From the NCBI GenBank assembly GCA_000526575.1, contig JAGI01000003.1, forward strand, positions 1 to 64,000: 64,000 bases of DNA, written 5' to 3'. Made by a program: the position numbers and the translations under genes. Positions 25,749-31,968 of this stretch are shown piece by piece. The first letter of the stretch is position 1. The number at the start of each line of letters is the position of its first letter. The notes beneath the pieces were generated by a model. It worked only from the letters and a program-made list of their open reading frames with translations. It did no database searches and had not been told where the DNA came from. This DNA comes from Clostridium sp. 12(A) (GTDB lineage: Bacteria; Bacillota; Clostridia; Lachnospirales; Lachnospiraceae).

Positions 25749-26316
25749 TCGTCTCATTTCCTTTCCTAAGTTCTCTGATTCGATCACGGCAGACCGCTGC
25801 GGTTTCGTAATCTTCAAAACGTAATGCTTCTTTTAGTCTGGAATCCAGCTCTGATAATTCTTTTTCCTCTTCAGTTACTCCTTTGGCCAATACTTTACCG
25901 CTTGTCTTTCCGCCCTTTTCGCCTTCATCCTCTGTATTTTGGTAAACAGGAGATTTACCAGTATGGTGCAGGCTTCCCTGAAGCTGCTTGATGCTGTCCT
26001 CCATAAGAGGACCGAAAACACTGTAACAGTCCGCACACCCAAATCTGCTGTCCCTGACAAAGGTATCATAAGTAGTGCTGCAGGTGGGACAGGAAATCTG
26101 ATGAAGCTTATCAGGTCCCTGATTATCATCTTCGATTCCTAAAAGGCCGGAAAGTAGCTTTCCAATCGGGAATTCTCCGTCAAATATAGCTGCGTATACT
26201 CCAAAATCCATCTCTTTCGCACACTGGGCACAAAAATGATGTTCCTTCTTCACTCCATTCACTACTTCCGTATATTGAATATTTGCTTCGCGAATCTTAC
26301 ATCTCTCGCATAACAT
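25741..26316 (-). CDS. mcsA: McsA, zinc-finger activator of McsB
   Basis: A 191-aa partner protein. Two zinc-binding pairs are visible: MLCERCKIR with HFCAQCAKEM (~3-39), and CPTCSTTYD with CADCYSVF (~75-102). A C-terminal UVR motif (LKEALRFEDYETAAVCRDRI, ~160-185) also occurs in UvrB and ClpC. McsA activates McsB and links it to ClpC. It is the second gene of the operon, 22 bases after the GntR gene. Confidence 0.93.
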   Translation of the reverse strand: MLCERCKIREANIQYTEVVNGVKKEHHFCAQCAKEMDFGVYAAIFDGEFPIGKLLSGLLGIEDDNQGPDKLHQISCPTCSTTYDTFVRDSRFGCADCYSVFGPLMEDSIKQLQGSLHHTGKSPVYQNTEDEGEKGGKTSGKVLAKGVTEEEKELSELDSRLKEALRFEDYETAAVCRDRIRELRKGNETNA

Positions 26317-26338
26317 AATGAACCTCCAATCCAGTGAA

Positions 26339-26725
26339 TTACTCTTCCCTCTGGTCTTTTATAAATGACTGGAATATCTCATCTACCAGCTGGTGCATTT
26401 CTTCACATGACACATTCTTACAGATGCCCCGAGCCAATACTACGCTCAAGTCTCTGCGCATCTCGTCAAGAACCTGGATCTTATCCACATCCAGAGATAC
26501 AACGGCACCTTTGCGGCGGTCAAGCTTTACAAAGCCTTCCTGTTTCAGCACAGTATACGCCTTATTTACCGTATGCATATTAATTCCTATGTTGTCGGCC
26601 ATCTGGCGTACGGAAGGCAGGGGATCCCCTTCTCTGATACTTTCTGTGGCGATTCCTATGATTATCTGGTTTCGAAGCTGGATGTAGATCGCTTCGTCAC
26701 TGTTAAAATCAATTTGCAAAAACAT
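26339..26725 (-). CDS. GntR-family regulator (YtrA type) heading the clp operon
   Basis: A 128-aa short GntR regulator. A winged HTH fills ~8-75 (IYIQLRNQIIIGIATESIRE, LPSVRQMADNIGINMHTVNK, GFVKLDRRKGAVV), then a short helical tail of about 50 residues, the YtrA-type layout without an effector domain. In Bacillus this operon starts with ctsR; here no CtsR (its zinc-independent HTH and arginine sensor) is present and this gene takes its place. It may be the heat or stress repressor of the operon; inferred. Start 26725 (MFLQIDFN) fits family N-termini; the site (GATGGTGA) is weak. Confidence 0.85.
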   Translation of the reverse strand: MFLQIDFNSDEAIYIQLRNQIIIGIATESIREGDPLPSVRQMADNIGINMHTVNKAYTVLKQEGFVKLDRRKGAVVSLDVDKIQVLDEMRRDLSVVLARGICKNVSCEEMHQLVDEIFQSFIKDQREE

Positions 26726-26741
26726 AATTTCACCATCTTTC

Positions 26742-26788
26742 GTTATATCTGTTATATGAATATTAGCACACATCACTTATTTTTTCAA
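26742..26788 (-). promoter_or_regulatory. Promoter of the GntR-mcsA-mcsB-clpC operon with a direct repeat
   Basis: Minus strand TTGAAA (26783-26788), 17 bases, TAATAT (26760-26765). Downstream of the -10 box the heptamer GTTATAT occurs twice in tandem (26742-26748 and 26751-26757), a candidate operator for autoregulation. No CtsR heptad or CIRCE element was seen. Confidence 0.6.
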
Positions 26789-26939
26789 TAGTCTTATCCT
26801 CTCCAGTTTTCATGGTTTTTTCATGATTAAAATTATCCTTTTTTGATTATTTCCATTTTATTCTGCATCACTTCCATATTTTCCTTTTGTATCTGTAAAT
26901 GCAAAATTTTTTTATTAGAAAGTTGTTTTATCATAAATA

Positions 26940-26985
26940 TAAGCTGCTGCATGCCCGGATTATTCCGTTCCCATGCAGCAGCTTA
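26940..26985 (-). terminator. Terminator after the cohesin gene
   Basis: A perfect 14-bp stem TAAGCTGCTGCATG/CATGCAGCAGCTTA with an 18-base loop, 20 bases past the stop codon. The minus-strand tail TATTTATGATAAAA is only moderately T-rich. Between 26789 and 26939 nothing clear is seen. Confidence 0.65.
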
Positions 26986-27004
26986 TTTATTTAACTATCT
27001 ATTA

Positions 27005-28807
27005 TCAATCATCAAGATCCATAAATTCAAAATCGTCTTCTTCGTCCTGATCATCCTTTTTTACCGGTTCAGATGACTGCCCGTTATCTGTCCTCCTGGG
27101 CTGTGTCGGTCTTTTACGTGACTGGCCATGAGACACATGGGAGGACAGATTTCTCTCCACATCTTCAAGGCTGGATTCCACAATAAAATCATCATCCTCT
27201 TCCAGTTCCTGTACCGGATTTTGTATCGGCTTGTCCATGTTTCTTTCAGGCCGCTTAACCTCTGGTATGGTTTCAAAGGATTCCCGGTCAAATTCTTCCC
27301 GGCTGTACCGTTTAATTCTGCTTTCCGGAGCCTCCTCCGGATCTTTATAAAAACGGTTACTGCCTTCCGGATCTCCTTTTACGGAACGATCCCTTCCTGA
27401 GCCGTTATTTCCTTTTCTTAATAGTAAAATAACGATTACCAGAAGAACCAAGGCCATTACGCTGACAGCAATAAGAATATAAAACTGCATGCTGTAATCT
27501 TTTCGAAGTGCTTCATAGGTCTTTGCCAGCTTTGTATACTCGTCACCTGATACTCCTGATGCAAAATACCTTTGAATCGTCTTTTCTTTTAAATCGTAAC
27601 GGTAGAATTCTTTTTCTCCATTCCAGTTCATGGCGTAGAATACACAATATTCCGGTTCTGCCTCAGTTTTTGCCACCCAGCCTGTCACACGGACGCCATC
27701 AATATCCACGCTTCGTTCTGTAAAGCCTTCCGGTACTTTGGTATCTGTATCAAGAGGAATAATTACAATAGCCTTAGAGCTTGTCTCCACCTGTACAAAC
27801 TGAGACCAGGAATCGGATTTCTCATTGTAAACAAAGAAGCCACCATTGCCGCCTGCATCCTTTAAATAAAGGAGAAGAAGATCCTTTTCCAGTCCTTTAC
27901 CCGACATTACATCAGTGCCCTTATAGGAATAAGTTGCTGCTTCAAATCCTTCTGGAAGAGATGCTTCATCAAAGGAGGTTGCAATGTTATAATCCGTTCC
28001 ATTAACCGTTACCTTTGTGTCAGCAAATTCCGCTTCTTTCGTCTCCCCATTTTCATTGGTTTCACGAACGGATTCTCCGCCTTCTGGTTTTTTCACGGTT
28101 ATGGTATAGTTCTTTATGGTCTGGCCGTCTTCGGCTGTTACTTTGACAACAACCTTGTTTTCTCCCGCTTTTAACCCTTTATCACCCTCAAGCGCTACGT
28201 TTGCCCCAGCATTGGCTGCCACAGCATTGACTACTAAATCAGAGGTGTTGGCATCTACTTCGGTTGTATATTGATCCACAGCAGCCGAAAATGCCGGTGA
28301 CAGGGTTCCAGGTGAGATTTTTAAGGATTTTAAAGTGGCATCCTTGGAAACCGTTGCCGGTGAAGTGACCTTTACGGTTGCACTCCCCTGTTTGCTAAGA
28401 GACAGTGCCTGGGAATTTACATCGTAAATTTCCTGAGAGGTTACCTTGATCTGGGCATTGCCCGCCTGTAAGGTTTTAAACTTAAGGCTAAAATTAAATG
28501 TTTTCTGGTCTGCAGAATCCATGGTACCTAAAATTTTAATGGCTCCTGCGCCGCCGTTGGCACTGGTCCCGCTTACAAATTCTAAAATCCCCGGATCATA
28601 CGACAGCATGACCTCTGCTGTCCCCAGTGCAGTATCACTGGTCACCTTCATATTAACAGTCACATCATTTCCCACCATGACCGATGGGTCTGAAAATGAG
28701 ATCTTTGTGTTGGAGGCCCAGGATATCATCTGACCGAAAGGTCCTACGACAGCTATCATGAAGGCGGTCATCACACTGATTAAAAGTTTTTTCAGTTTCC
28801 TATTCAT
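27005..28807 (-). CDS. Membrane-anchored cohesin-domain protein
   Basis: A 600-aa secreted and membrane-anchored protein. Signal peptide ~1-31, then a cohesin-like domain ~33-150 (ISFSDPSVMVGNDVTVNMKV, AEVMLSYDPGILEFVSG, FKTLQAGNAQIKV). A cadherin-like beta-sandwich (~160-240, LKSLKISPGTLSPAFSAAVD ... NYTITVKK) follows, then a region ~245-430 without known motif, and a single TM helix (~443-465, LIAVSVMALVLLVIVILLLR). The cytoplasmic tail is ~130 residues, acidic and Ser/Arg-rich, ending EEDDFEFMDLDD. Cohesins bind dockerins; the gene directly upstream encodes a dockerin protein. The predicted role is to hold that hydrolase at the cell surface. AGGAG precedes the ATG; the gap to the dockerin gene is 24 bases. 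Confidence 0.85.
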   Translation of the reverse strand: MNRKLKKLLISVMTAFMIAVVGPFGQMISWASNTKISFSDPSVMVGNDVTVNMKVTSDTALGTAEVMLSYDPGILEFVSGTSANGGAGAIKILGTMDSADQKTFNFSLKFKTLQAGNAQIKVTSQEIYDVNSQALSLSKQGSATVKVTSPATVSKDATLKSLKISPGTLSPAFSAAVDQYTTEVDANTSDLVVNAVAANAGANVALEGDKGLKAGENKVVVKVTAEDGQTIKNYTITVKKPEGGESVRETNENGETKEAEFADTKVTVNGTDYNIATSFDEASLPEGFEAATYSYKGTDVMSGKGLEKDLLLLYLKDAGGNGGFFVYNEKSDSWSQFVQVETSSKAIVIIPLDTDTKVPEGFTERSVDIDGVRVTGWVAKTEAEPEYCVFYAMNWNGEKEFYRYDLKEKTIQRYFASGVSGDEYTKLAKTYEALRKDYSMQFYILIAVSVMALVLLVIVILLLRKGNNGSGRDRSVKGDPEGSNRFYKDPEEAPESRIKRYSREEFDRESFETIPEVKRPERNMDKPIQNPVQELEEDDDFIVESSLEDVERNLSSHVSHGQSRKRPTQPRRTDNGQSSEPVKKDDQDEEDDFEFMDLDD

Positions 28808-28831
28808 ATTGTCTCCTATTTCTGCAGGGCA

Positions 28832-31189
28832 TTAAAGTCCCAGAACCTTCTTTTTTAATACCAGAAGATCCTTTGAATCAATCTTGCCGTCGCCATTTAA
28901 GTCAGCGGCCTTTTTTTCTGTTTCAGACAACTTTTCCAGTCCAAGGAGGTAACGCTGAAGCTTTAGCACATCCTTGCTTGATACTTTTCCATCCCCATCA
29001 ATATCTCCTGTGGTCCCGGAAGCAGCATGCGCGGCGGCAACTTCCTGGGCCTGTGTCTGTGCTGCAGTCTCTGTTACCTGCGTTGTCACCGGTTTACTTC
29101 CTCCCGGTCCCTGTGTGATGACACCGGTGGAAGTCTGCACGGAGATACTGGTACTGCCTACGGGAGCAATGGTTACATTGCTTCCTCCTGGCGTTCCCTT
29201 GTTACCAGACTCATTGGTACTTGTTTTGCCAGGTCCGCTGCTTCCAGGTCCACCGCTGTTTCCGGATCCGCTGCTGCCACTGGATCCGCTGCTCCCTGAA
29301 CTACTGCTTCCCGGGTTACTGGGCGTGCTGCCTGAACTGCTGCCTCCCACACCAGAAGAATAGGTCGGACCATTATTCTGACGTACTACATGAAGGATAT
29401 ATTCCCTTACCGTTCCATTTTGAGCTGTTACGGATATTTTAATATCATTATTACCATTTTGAAGTGCTACGGTTCCGGTTCCGCTCACAGAGGAGGCAGA
29501 ATTTAACGCTGAAGCAGATATCTTAATGTTAGATACCGTAGGGTCAACAATTAAATTGTATTCCAGGGTATCTCTGTGGAAGGTAGGTGTCATTACAAAG
29601 CCGTCCACACTTAAGCCTGCAAGCATATTGTTGGGATTTCCATCACCTGTTGGCTGACTGCAGGGAGTTTCCGGCATATTATTGTAGACCGGAATCTTAA
29701 ACTCAAGAGCCGTTTTTTTCATATCGCTGTTATATGCTTTTGAAAATACAGCACCCTCTGAAGCTGCGCCCTGTACATTGGTCATGTACTGATGCTTATA
29801 TAAGTTTGCACCCTGTACATTAAACTTCTTCAGATAAAATGTATCCTGCCCAACTTTTACATAGTTATTACCATAATATAAAGCTCCGCCCAAAATTGAT
29901 TTTTCAGGGGAATTCCATGGTCTTCCGTAATTACCTGTTTGGGAGGCCCACCATAAACCTCTTTGAACCGCTGACATACTTCCTGACTGATAGGCTTCAA
30001 TGTTAAAGAAATTATAAAATCCCTCATATCCGGACTCTGTTCCGGATACGCTTTTTCCATTTCCTGCGGATCCCTGTTCCTGTATAATCATAGCAGCAAG
30101 AACGTAAGGGTTAACCCCGGACTGGGTGGCGGCATTCATGATCATGTTTGCATAAGAGGAACTGCCGGTACCGGTGGTATTGTTGGAAGGAGCTGTTGAG
30201 GACGGACCCGTAAGGCTGGCTCCTGGTCCGTATTCCATAAGAACCTGAGGATTCTTAGGTGTTATGGAAGCGTGAGGTGCCTCTAAGCTTACATTCCCGG
30301 ATCCGGAGCTTTGGGGAGCTCCTCCGGTAGCAGGACTTACAGCTGCGCCAGGTCCTACATTTTGAGAACCTCCGGTGGGATTTGAAGTACCGGTGGAATC
30401 ATTGGAACCTCCGCCGCTTTGGGAGCTGCCGGATAAAAAGGTTCCTTTCGTCATGGTCTGCAGCCCATCCATGGTCTGTTTATTGCTGTCATAGGAATGG
30501 CTTAAGAACTGAAATACATTTGTTTCGTCCAGAAAATTTCTGGGATCCATATAGTATTTTACAATATCTTCTGATGCTGTTACCCAGCTACTGCCGTCAA
30601 AGCCTACCCAGGTGCTGGTATCGAAGTTATAGGCACCGCTTAGCATGGACTTCCAGGAGGACATGCTGCTGGTATGTACCAGGGTCTTTCCTACCTGACT
30701 TTCTTCTCTTACCGCTGTATTCCAGTCAAGATTGGTCTTTTGGGCACGAAAAACCCACTGAGGGTGCTGTGCATGGAGCTCACGAAGGCGCACCTTATAG
30801 CTCTCCGGAAATCCTTCCGCGGAAAGCTGGGATTCAAAGTTCCCATCCTGGGTGTAGGAAGCAGGAAACTTTAAATAACTCTTTGTTACATAGCCGGTAA
30901 CCTTTTGACCACTTGCATTGGAAAAACGAATTTGATACCATAACGCGCCGTCCGTTGCATTCTTTTCATCGATTACGGTTACGGATGCGCCGTTGGTCAG
31001 TTTTGTAACGATAGAATAGGTCGTACCGGGCCCGCTCCTCACATTAAGTGAAGTAGCATTCACCGTGGCCGACCTCTCTGTGTAAGCATACGCATTTATG
31101 TATGGCGTAATAACTCCAACGCTGGAATCCAACACCAGAACACTGGCTAATATAATAGCCAGCTTACGAGCTTTTTTGTACTTTTTCAT
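28832..31189 (-). CDS. Secreted dockerin-bearing glucosaminidase with SH3b domain
   Basis: A 785-aa cell-wall hydrolase. Signal peptide ~1-35 (KKARKLAIILASVLVLDSSV), bacterial SH3 domain ~40-105 (LNVRSGPGTTYSIVTKL), a low-complexity insert (~255-335), and a glucosaminidase domain ~345-505 (GVNPYVLAAMIIQEQG, FYNFFNIEAY). A cadherin-like domain lies at ~525-610 and a Ser/Gly/Pro/Thr linker at ~615-720. The C-terminal type I dockerin has two EF-hand-like repeats (DIDGDGKVSSKDVLKLQRYL and DLNGDGKIDSKDLLVLKKKV). It should cut the GlcNAc-MurNAc backbone of peptidoglycan. Start 31189 (MKKYKK) is preferred, with GGAG 6 bases upstream. It is first in the operon with the cohesin protein. Confidence 0.9.
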   Translation of the reverse strand: MKKYKKARKLAIILASVLVLDSSVGVITPYINAYAYTERSATVNATSLNVRSGPGTTYSIVTKLTNGASVTVIDEKNATDGALWYQIRFSNASGQKVTGYVTKSYLKFPASYTQDGNFESQLSAEGFPESYKVRLRELHAQHPQWVFRAQKTNLDWNTAVREESQVGKTLVHTSSMSSWKSMLSGAYNFDTSTWVGFDGSSWVTASEDIVKYYMDPRNFLDETNVFQFLSHSYDSNKQTMDGLQTMTKGTFLSGSSQSGGGSNDSTGTSNPTGGSQNVGPGAAVSPATGGAPQSSGSGNVSLEAPHASITPKNPQVLMEYGPGASLTGPSSTAPSNNTTGTGSSSYANMIMNAATQSGVNPYVLAAMIIQEQGSAGNGKSVSGTESGYEGFYNFFNIEAYQSGSMSAVQRGLWWASQTGNYGRPWNSPEKSILGGALYYGNNYVKVGQDTFYLKKFNVQGANLYKHQYMTNVQGAASEGAVFSKAYNSDMKKTALEFKIPVYNNMPETPCSQPTGDGNPNNMLAGLSVDGFVMTPTFHRDTLEYNLIVDPTVSNIKISASALNSASSVSGTGTVALQNGNNDIKISVTAQNGTVREYILHVVRQNNGPTYSSGVGGSSSGSTPSNPGSSSSGSSGSSGSSGSGNSGGPGSSGPGKTSTNESGNKGTPGGSNVTIAPVGSTSISVQTSTGVITQGPGGSKPVTTQVTETAAQTQAQEVAAAHAASGTTGDIDGDGKVSSKDVLKLQRYLLGLEKLSETEKKAADLNGDGKIDSKDLLVLKKKVLGL

Positions 31190-31256
31190 CTGTTTCTCCC
31201 AATATGACCTTATGTATTTTAAACTTAACAATTATATGTAAATCATCCATTTATTT

Positions 31257-31286
31257 ATTATAATGACAAATCATACCATGTGTCAA
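31257..31286 (-). promoter_or_regulatory. Promoter of the dockerin-cohesin operon
   Basis: Minus strand TTGACA (31281-31286), 18 bases, TATAAT (31257-31262). Consensus hexamers, about 65 bases from the start. Confidence 0.75.
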
Positions 31287-31373
31287 CCAAATCGTCCAAA
31301 GTTCAGACAATTGGAATTATTTGTAAGAAAATCTTTATAGTTTTAAGAATCACTTAAGCATCATAGCGATACC

Positions 31374-31402
31374 TTGAAAACAAGGATATGGTGTGATAGA
31401 CT
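31374..31402 (+). promoter_or_regulatory. Promoter of the DUF985 gene
   Basis: TTGAAA (31374-31379), 17 bases, TAGACT (31397-31402), followed by AGGAAAGGAG. Confidence 0.55.
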
Positions 31403-31432
31403 AAGTTAAAACAAAAGGGAAGGAAAGGAGAT

Positions 31433-31462
31433 ATGATGCAGGAGCCATCATATGACGATTAA
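31433..31462 (+). CDS. Nine-codon leader peptide coupled to the DUF985 gene
   Basis: ATGATG at 31433 is the start best placed for the strong AAAGGAG site (2 or 5 bases). It encodes MMQEPSYDD and stops at TAA 31460-31462, whose last base is the A of the DUF985 ATG (TAATG). The DUF985 start has no well-spaced site of its own, so re-initiation after this peptide is likely. Confidence 0.45.
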   Translation: MMQEPSYDD

Positions 31463-31968
31463 TGAATACAGCAGATTATTTTATTGAAAAACTGGATATG
31501 ATCCCTCATCAGGAGGGCGGCTTCTTTAAAGAAATAGAAGCTTCTGATGATTATATTCCGGTAAACGCGACCGAAGCCGATACCAGAAAAACACGAAAAT
31601 TATGGACAAGCATCTATTTTCTTTTAAGGGACGGTGAAGTTTCCAATTTCCACCGGTTAAAATCCGATGAAATGTGGTATTATCATGCAGGTTCCTCATT
31701 GACCATATATATGATAACTCCAGAAGGTGAATTAATCACCAGGGATCTTGGCTTAGATTTAGATCGGGGAGAATGCCCTCAGGTTCTGGTTCCAAGGGGA
31801 TATATATTTGGCTCTGCCATGAATAAAGAAGGATTTGCTCTGGTGGGCTGTATGGTTTCCCCTGGCTTTGACTTTGAAGACTTTGAATTATTAAATAGAG
31901 AGGAGCTTTTAAAAAGCTATCCTCACCACACAGAGATCATAAGAAAGCTGTCTATGGAAAACAGTTAA
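31462..31968 (+). CDS. DUF985 / cupin_5 family protein
   Basis: A 168-aa cytoplasmic cupin. The metal-site motifs are typical of the DUF985 family: PHQEGGFFKEI (~15-25), SIYFLLRDGEVSNFHRLKSD (~50-70), WYYHAGSSL, and CPQVLVPRGYIFGS (~105-120). A stop codon lies directly upstream in frame, so ATG 31462 must be the start. Function is unknown; some relatives are annotated as sugar epimerase-like. Monocistronic between its promoter and the terminator at 31989. Confidence 0.9.
   Translation: MNTADYFIEKLDMIPHQEGGFFKEIEASDDYIPVNATEADTRKTRKLWTSIYFLLRDGEVSNFHRLKSDEMWYYHAGSSLTIYMITPEGELITRDLGLDLDRGECPQVLVPRGYIFGSAMNKEGFALVGCMVSPGFDFEDFELLNREELLKSYPHHTEIIRKLSMENS

Follow-up and report, generated by a model that had tools for sequence, protein, structure and literature searches.

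The window considered here, a stretch of 64,000 nucleotides from Clostridium sp. 12(A) (contig JAGI01000003.1, positions 1 to 64,000), carries a two-gene locus on its minus strand, the strand of all window features given below. The first gene encodes a secreted peptidoglycan hydrolase of 785 amino acids (28832..31189), with an open reading frame (ORF) running from an ATG at 31189 to a stop at 28832. After a gap of 24 nucleotides follows the gene of a bitopic, cohesin-bearing membrane protein of 600 amino acids (27005..28807), whose ATG is preceded by AGGAG. A preliminary description of this DNA had located both ORFs in these positions and had proposed that they form a non-cellulosomal cohesin-dockerin pair placing a wall hydrolase on a transmembrane protein. 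The modules concerned are unique in the genome, adjacent, conserved, and constrained, which supports that proposal.

The hydrolase comprises an SH3_3 domain, a SagB-like catalytic region, a Cadherin-like domain, a linker rich in glycine and serine, and a type I dockerin, in that order. The SH3 domain already recognized in the preliminary description was assigned to SH3_3 (PF08239, 30869..31051, Pfam 51.4 bits). The glucosaminidase domain named there was also recovered (29630..30877), through matches to NCBIfam SagB (NF052642, 6.2e-13) and, by profile, to chain 6u0o_B of the Protein Data Bank (PDB) (2.3e-24). It was not recovered through PF01832, for which the Pfam scan of the hydrolase gave no match at E<=1, and membership of that family was rejected on this ground. 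The NCBIfam match reaches 48.6 bits against a curated cut-off of 425, and the enzyme appears by sequence to be a distant relative of SagB and not SagB itself. We take PDB 6u0o to be the SagB-SpdC entry; an invariant glutamate, Glu371 in the 785-amino-acid numbering (codon 30077-30079), aligned with a glutamate of 6u0o_B that is presumably the catalytic residue. The Cadherin-like beta sandwich (PF12733, 29378..29605, Pfam 40.4 bits) was absent from the preliminary description. The linker contains the motif GGSNVTI (29168..29188), picked out by comparison with dockerin-less relatives. The dockerin (PF00404, 28841..29008) scored 61.6 bits against a curated cut-off of 22.9 and matched many solved dockerins in a PDB sequence search; its two calcium-loop repeats, as previously reported, both carry the ligand pattern.

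The membrane protein consists of a signal peptide, a cohesin (PF00963, 28325..28702), a Cadherin-like domain (PF12733, 28091..28333, Pfam 45.3 bits), an unnamed extracellular region with two repeats (PEGF...FYxYD, 27563..28024), a predicted transmembrane helix (residues 444-462, 27422..27478), and an acidic cytoplasmic tail (27008..27421; 38 aspartate or glutamate and 24 lysine or arginine residues). The tail is variable except at its end, where constraint analysis and a motif search delimited the conserved C-terminal motif DEEDDFEFMDLDD (27008..27046). The cohesin-like and Cadherin-like domains, helix, and acidic tail of the preliminary description are therefore all present. The cohesin of the window protein scored 25.8 bits against a curated cut-off of 24.1, which is marginal alone, and as a single PDB query it retrieved no confident solved cohesin, the lone weak match having a best E of 0.18. 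PF00963 was matched at E<=0.01 in 62 of 67 homologues, which had been preselected for a strong match to their own profile, and in 23 of the 31 members of a less selected set, A1. The family cohesin profile retrieved solved scaffoldin cohesins from the PDB, the two-cohesin chain scoring 3.8e-11 and single cohesins 6e-7, with a background of antibody light chains from E of about 0.1. The cohesin identity, marginal from the window sequence alone, is thus firmer as a family assignment, and the cohesin fold expected in the preliminary description is suggested by this profile match to solved cohesins. The Pfam scan of set A1 also found the Cadherin-like domain in 29 members, other families occurring in at most three members each (among 25 of the 49 families listed), and in the NCBIfam scan the commonest family was a weak match in 5/31. 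The unnamed region, common to members across the family, gave no recurrent family match, and a PDB sequence search with that of the window protein returned nothing at E<=5.

At E<=0.001 the genome of 4,605,255 bases yields a single match each for dockerin and cohesin, and they lie in these two neighboring genes, so that their adjacency is not attributable to chance. The catalytic profile likewise matched once at E<=1e-20. Among named relatives, the hydrolase comes nearest to that of [Clostridium] aerotolerans (97%) and then to those of several Lacrimispora species, and the genus was accordingly taken, from these named relatives, to be Lacrimispora. Dockerin and membrane protein were each found in 24 of 25 genomes of the genus; the genome lacking the pair, G216, is 82% complete. 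The dockerin hydrolase lies directly upstream of the membrane-protein gene in all 20 genus loci fetched, and in every one the ligand pattern is present in both calcium loops. The genes are also adjacent by coordinates in G203 and G223, and in G214 they lie on separate contigs. The preliminary description had looked to related genomes for conservation of the pair, and it is borne out in this genus and in many other genera. An apparent second copy of the pair (L198 in G218) contains runs of N that suggest a possible assembly artefact; for this reason it was not counted as a duplication, and its 1384-amino-acid ORF was excluded from the genus alignment.

Constraint within the genus was estimated from 21 sequences per region, including that of the window, by simple pairwise estimates of the ratio of nonsynonymous to synonymous substitution rates (dN/dS), dropping saturated pairs and pairs with very low synonymous divergence. 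The dockerin (mean identity 80%, median dN/dS 0.111) and the cohesin (86%, 0.055) are under stronger constraint than the linkers, the hydrolase linker having a mean identity of 60% and a median dN/dS of 0.25. The Cadherin-like domain of the membrane protein gave 87% and 0.045. For the cytoplasmic tail as a whole the values were 42% and 0.284, and for its last 12 residues 82% and 0.099.

The wider distribution was surveyed in 200 genomes, one per genus, of a family taken from the record names to be Lachnospiraceae. Pfam cohesin was found in 83/200 genomes and Pfam dockerin in 78/200, and the membrane-protein search matched 169/200, a count that includes matches to the Cadherin-like part alone. 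One hundred loci were read in as many genomes, picked non-randomly by matches to Pfam cohesin, Pfam dockerin, or profile A1; the tally of neighbors leaves out three loci in which no membrane-protein gene was recognized (L077, L090, and L101) and three near a contig edge. A dockerin hydrolase stands just upstream of the membrane-protein gene in 31 loci, with a cohesin recognized in 30 of them. Both calcium loops match in 16/31 of these family dockerins and at least one loop in 27/31. The well-scoring dockerin hydrolases (above 45 bits, with the contig end distant) are followed by a member of the membrane-protein family in 31 of the loci read. Among the 50 family genomes with a single dockerin, at least 31 have this dockerin on a glucosaminidase whose gene immediately precedes that of the membrane protein (in five of the 31 the Pfam dockerin was assumed to be the one found at the locus), and a cohesin was recognized in 29 of the 31; in the remaining 19 the two are not adjacent or lie outside the loci read. 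Extended to the class, a search with profile A1 at E<=1e-30 gave matches in 34 of 293 genomes. Of these, 28 belong to other families, and many of the matches cover the profile only in part.

Other neighbors were also encountered. A LytR-CpsA-Psr-like gene lies just upstream in 14 loci, all with a cohesin, and LytR_cpsA_psr was matched in 7/10 of the neighboring genes scanned. Such a gene, and not a glucosaminidase, adjoins the cohesin membrane protein in L091, L094, L128, L129, L135, L152, and L158. In 19 loci no wall-enzyme neighbor of these kinds was found upstream, and a cohesin was recognized in 12 of them. They include L143, where a PF01832 glucosaminidase with ChW repeats (L143:5922-8804) precedes another gene of the membrane-protein family. 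In L070 a PF01832 glucosaminidase with a dockerin (L070:3393-5372), a different enzyme, adjoins a membrane-protein family member with a cohesin. The neighboring gene encodes a subtilase in L108, and in L077 a large papain-like protease with a dockerin (L077:3354-7901) lies beside a Cadherin-like protein. The preliminary description was in this respect incomplete, as other lineages pair the cohesin-membrane gene with a dockerin-less hydrolase or a LytR-CpsA-Psr gene.

Since the 100 loci had been chosen by cohesin, dockerin, or membrane-protein matches, 40 extra stretches around matches to the catalytic profile, part of a longer list of hydrolases, were read with the cohesin disregarded. They held 41 hydrolases, of which 35 remained after six with a contig end within 500 nucleotides downstream were dropped. 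A dockerin above 45 bits was borne by three of the 35, and all three were followed by a member of the membrane-protein family. No membrane gene follows in 26 of the 32 hydrolases without a good dockerin; four of these 26 bear weaker dockerins (29-43 bits) and belong to genomes with 18 to 29 dockerins. A well-scoring dockerin thus accompanies the membrane gene, and a dockerin-less hydrolase often stands without one. Where a genome is rich in dockerins, that of the hydrolase may have other cohesins as partners, and many of the hydrolase copies in this less biased sample score below the window type and may be paralogues.

These observations suggest that the window pair forms a membrane-tethered glucosaminidase complex in which the dockerin is plugged into the cohesin and which acts on nascent glycans in the manner of SagB-SpdC, a reading to which we assign a probability of about 0.6. 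The C-terminal, calcium-binding dockerin of the secreted SagB-like glucosaminidase would plug into the sole cohesin of the membrane protein, and the flexible linker would keep the enzyme near the outer face of the membrane. There it would cut back or release freshly synthesized glycan strands, like SagB-SpdC of Staphylococcus aureus. Control of glycan length is the preferred role, given that SagB, to which the catalytic region comes closest, has this function. The conserved acidic-aromatic end of the tail probably contacts a cytosolic partner and would position the complex. The pattern DDxFEF[I/M/L]DLD, composed after the sequences had been seen, occurs at the tail end of 54/97 membrane proteins, whereas shuffling gave a mean of 3.6 and a maximum of 10. 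It is present with hydrolase, LytR-CpsA-Psr, and other neighbors alike, and some family members end soon after the transmembrane helix without it. When the genome was searched for the motif, the window gave the only exact match and one further site had two mismatches, the reversed-pattern control also giving one per strand.

Several results weigh against docking through the dockerin as the general function of the cohesin. In the 100-locus set, a dockerin-less hydrolase stands just upstream of the membrane-protein gene in 29 loci, all 29 with a cohesin, a figure that is partly built in, the loci having been chosen largely by cohesin or membrane-protein-profile matches. In 21 of these 29 genomes no dockerin was matched at E<=1e-3, and since genomes without any dockerin match keep the cohesin, it would have another use in some lineages. 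In the less biased sample, six of the 32 hydrolases without a good dockerin are followed by the membrane gene, with a cohesin in 6/6, and a cohesin was recognized in only one of the three dockerin loci. The other two, L335 and L340, consist of a dockerin hydrolase and then a membrane-protein family member with no cohesin recognized. On the tree of the catalytic domain (65 rows), the dockerin label needs seven changes against a shuffled mean of 21.6, and the genus is nested among dockerin-less rows. Coupling between dockerin and cohesin distances over 29 pairs was ambiguous, with a partial r of 0.13 (p 0.08) given the catalytic domain and of 0.27 (p 0.002) given the unnamed domain; between the dockerin and the catalytic domain of the same protein it is stronger (partial r 0.38). 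Loss of the cohesin was associated with loss of the hydrolase in the 100-locus set (Fisher p 1.2e-4). The phylogenetic pair test, with two usable pairs and a median p of 1, did not uphold this association, and it is not relied on because the independent tree pairs give no significance. For this genome, docking of the dockerin into the cohesin is nevertheless the best, if unproven, reading of the sequences.

The rival account that survives best holds that the cohesin does work with the hydrolase, through some other part of it such as the GGSNVTI strand at the linker end or the Cadherin-like domain, and that the dockerin is superfluous to this or has its binding partner elsewhere. The 35 loci (29 and six) in which a dockerin-less hydrolase is followed by a cohesin membrane gene argue for it, as does the distribution of GGSN[VI]T[IV]: 7/29 dockerin-less hydrolases have it at their C terminus or close to it, and it is kept in the linker of the window protein and of 15/20 genus hydrolases. 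Because this linker motif corresponds to the C-terminal end of some dockerin-less relatives, the dockerin looks like a later addition behind an older C-terminal end, the alternative being repeated loss. However, the remaining 22 dockerin-less hydrolases, three of which have loose variants, lack the motif, as do the 31 dockerin hydrolases of the family. In addition, the dockerin is kept intact and under constraint across the genus, the genome holds no second cohesin match, and the membrane gene is missing beside 26 of the 32 copies that lack a good dockerin. On balance we regard this account as unlikely.

A further alternative is that the pair controls sporulation or the separation of daughter cells, with the tail as a signaling receptor. 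The conserved tail end would suit such a receptor, and glucosaminidases often act in cell separation. The best promoter-like site upstream of the operon (TTGACA-18-TATAAT, 31257..31286) is a perfect sigma-70-type consensus, 12/12 positions by consensus match only, which is not proof; it speaks against a gene used for sporulation only and has no bearing on separation. Of the two roles raised in the preliminary description, sporulation is not supported, and for cell separation the evidence points neither way. The nearest solved relative, taken to be SagB, also argues against this alternative, which we consider doubtful and quite improbable. A remnant or mini-cellulosome displaying a polysaccharide-degrading enzyme, for which one could cite the largely cellulosomal nearest solved dockerins and cohesins and the single-cohesin proteins and anchoring scaffoldins with transmembrane helices in the available part of a 2024 survey (PMC11557425), is very improbable, as the enzyme is a peptidoglycan-type glucosaminidase, and a cellulosome was rejected because it needs several cohesins and several dockerin enzymes and the genome matches one of each.

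Regarding expression, the two genes appear to form an operon with a sigma-70-type consensus promoter. In positions 26300-31700 the two strands together hold 21 promoter-like sites (consensus matches only), compared with a mean of 9.5 after shuffling, and the site described above is the sole 12/12 match among them. None of the six terminator-like sites found in the same interval, again consensus matches only, lies on the minus strand, and an Rfam search of it gave nothing above gathering scores. An upstream TTG at 31231 would extend the hydrolase to 799 amino acids; it was rejected as the start, the 12/12 promoter site lying just upstream of it and the ATG giving a normal signal peptide. A regulator-like gene follows downstream of the pair, and the genes downstream also include what we take to be mcsA, mcsB, and clpC.

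Several known systems can be compared with the pair. Cellulosomal type I pairs resemble it in the DxDGDGK/DxNGDGK repeats of the dockerin, the cohesin, and the tethering of a secreted enzyme by a C-terminal module; in contrast, here there are one cohesin and one dockerin, a bitopic receptor with a cytoplasmic tail, and, as we infer, the bacterium's own wall as substrate. NagJ of Clostridium perfringens has a cohesin outside the cellulosome, borne on the enzyme. It matched the family profile over positions 3-118 of 122 (E 1.3e-4), and the window pair is likewise non-cellulosomal but carries the cohesin on the membrane protein. In the available part of the 2024 survey, single-cohesin proteins are listed as "of unknown function" (PMC11557425). 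These proteins and the transmembrane-helix scaffoldins of the same source share with the window protein a single cohesin and a C-terminal transmembrane helix, but the peptidoglycan hydrolase partner found here has no counterpart in that part of the survey (PMC11557425). The SagB-SpdC complex of S. aureus (SpdC also being called LyrA) is described as a peptidoglycan-releasing factor that sets glycan length, with SpdC, a member of the CAAX protease family, integral to the membrane (PMC12272431). The likeness lies in a related glucosaminidase that a membrane-protein partner holds and regulates, whereas the partner here is single-pass with a putative cohesin-dockerin link and SpdC is of the CAAX-protease type (PMC12272431). 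The membrane protein of the window gave no Pfam match to the CAAX protease family at E<=1, having a signal peptide and one transmembrane helix instead. Within the accessible text of the open-licence PubMed Central literature, including PMC2914790, PMC5817068, and PMC5814915, no such hydrolase-receptor pair was met; an earlier description elsewhere is possible.

Cohesin-dockerin pairing, known mainly from the digestion of plant and host polymers, here seems to be employed on the wall of the bacterium itself, and one family has the arrangement in 31 genera or more; a lone cohesin and a lone dockerin need not mean a cellulosome. With one cohesin, one dockerin, and one operon, the locus offers a small, testable system for studying how a glucosaminidase is kept at the membrane, and it may represent a counterpart of SagB-SpdC in bacteria other than staphylococci. 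The LytR-CpsA-Psr pairing of other lineages fits a family that serves wall assembly close to the membrane. More tentatively, and with low confidence, the membrane proteins may represent an unnamed Clostridia family of exchangeable membrane platforms for enzymes of the nascent wall, a SagB-like glucosaminidase in some lineages and a LytR-CpsA-Psr wall-polymer ligase in others, in which the cohesin would take a dockerin or another handle, such as the GGSNVTI strand, and the shared tail motif would lead to one cytosolic partner. Such a membrane family with exchangeable wall-enzyme partners would be the most interesting part of the pattern.

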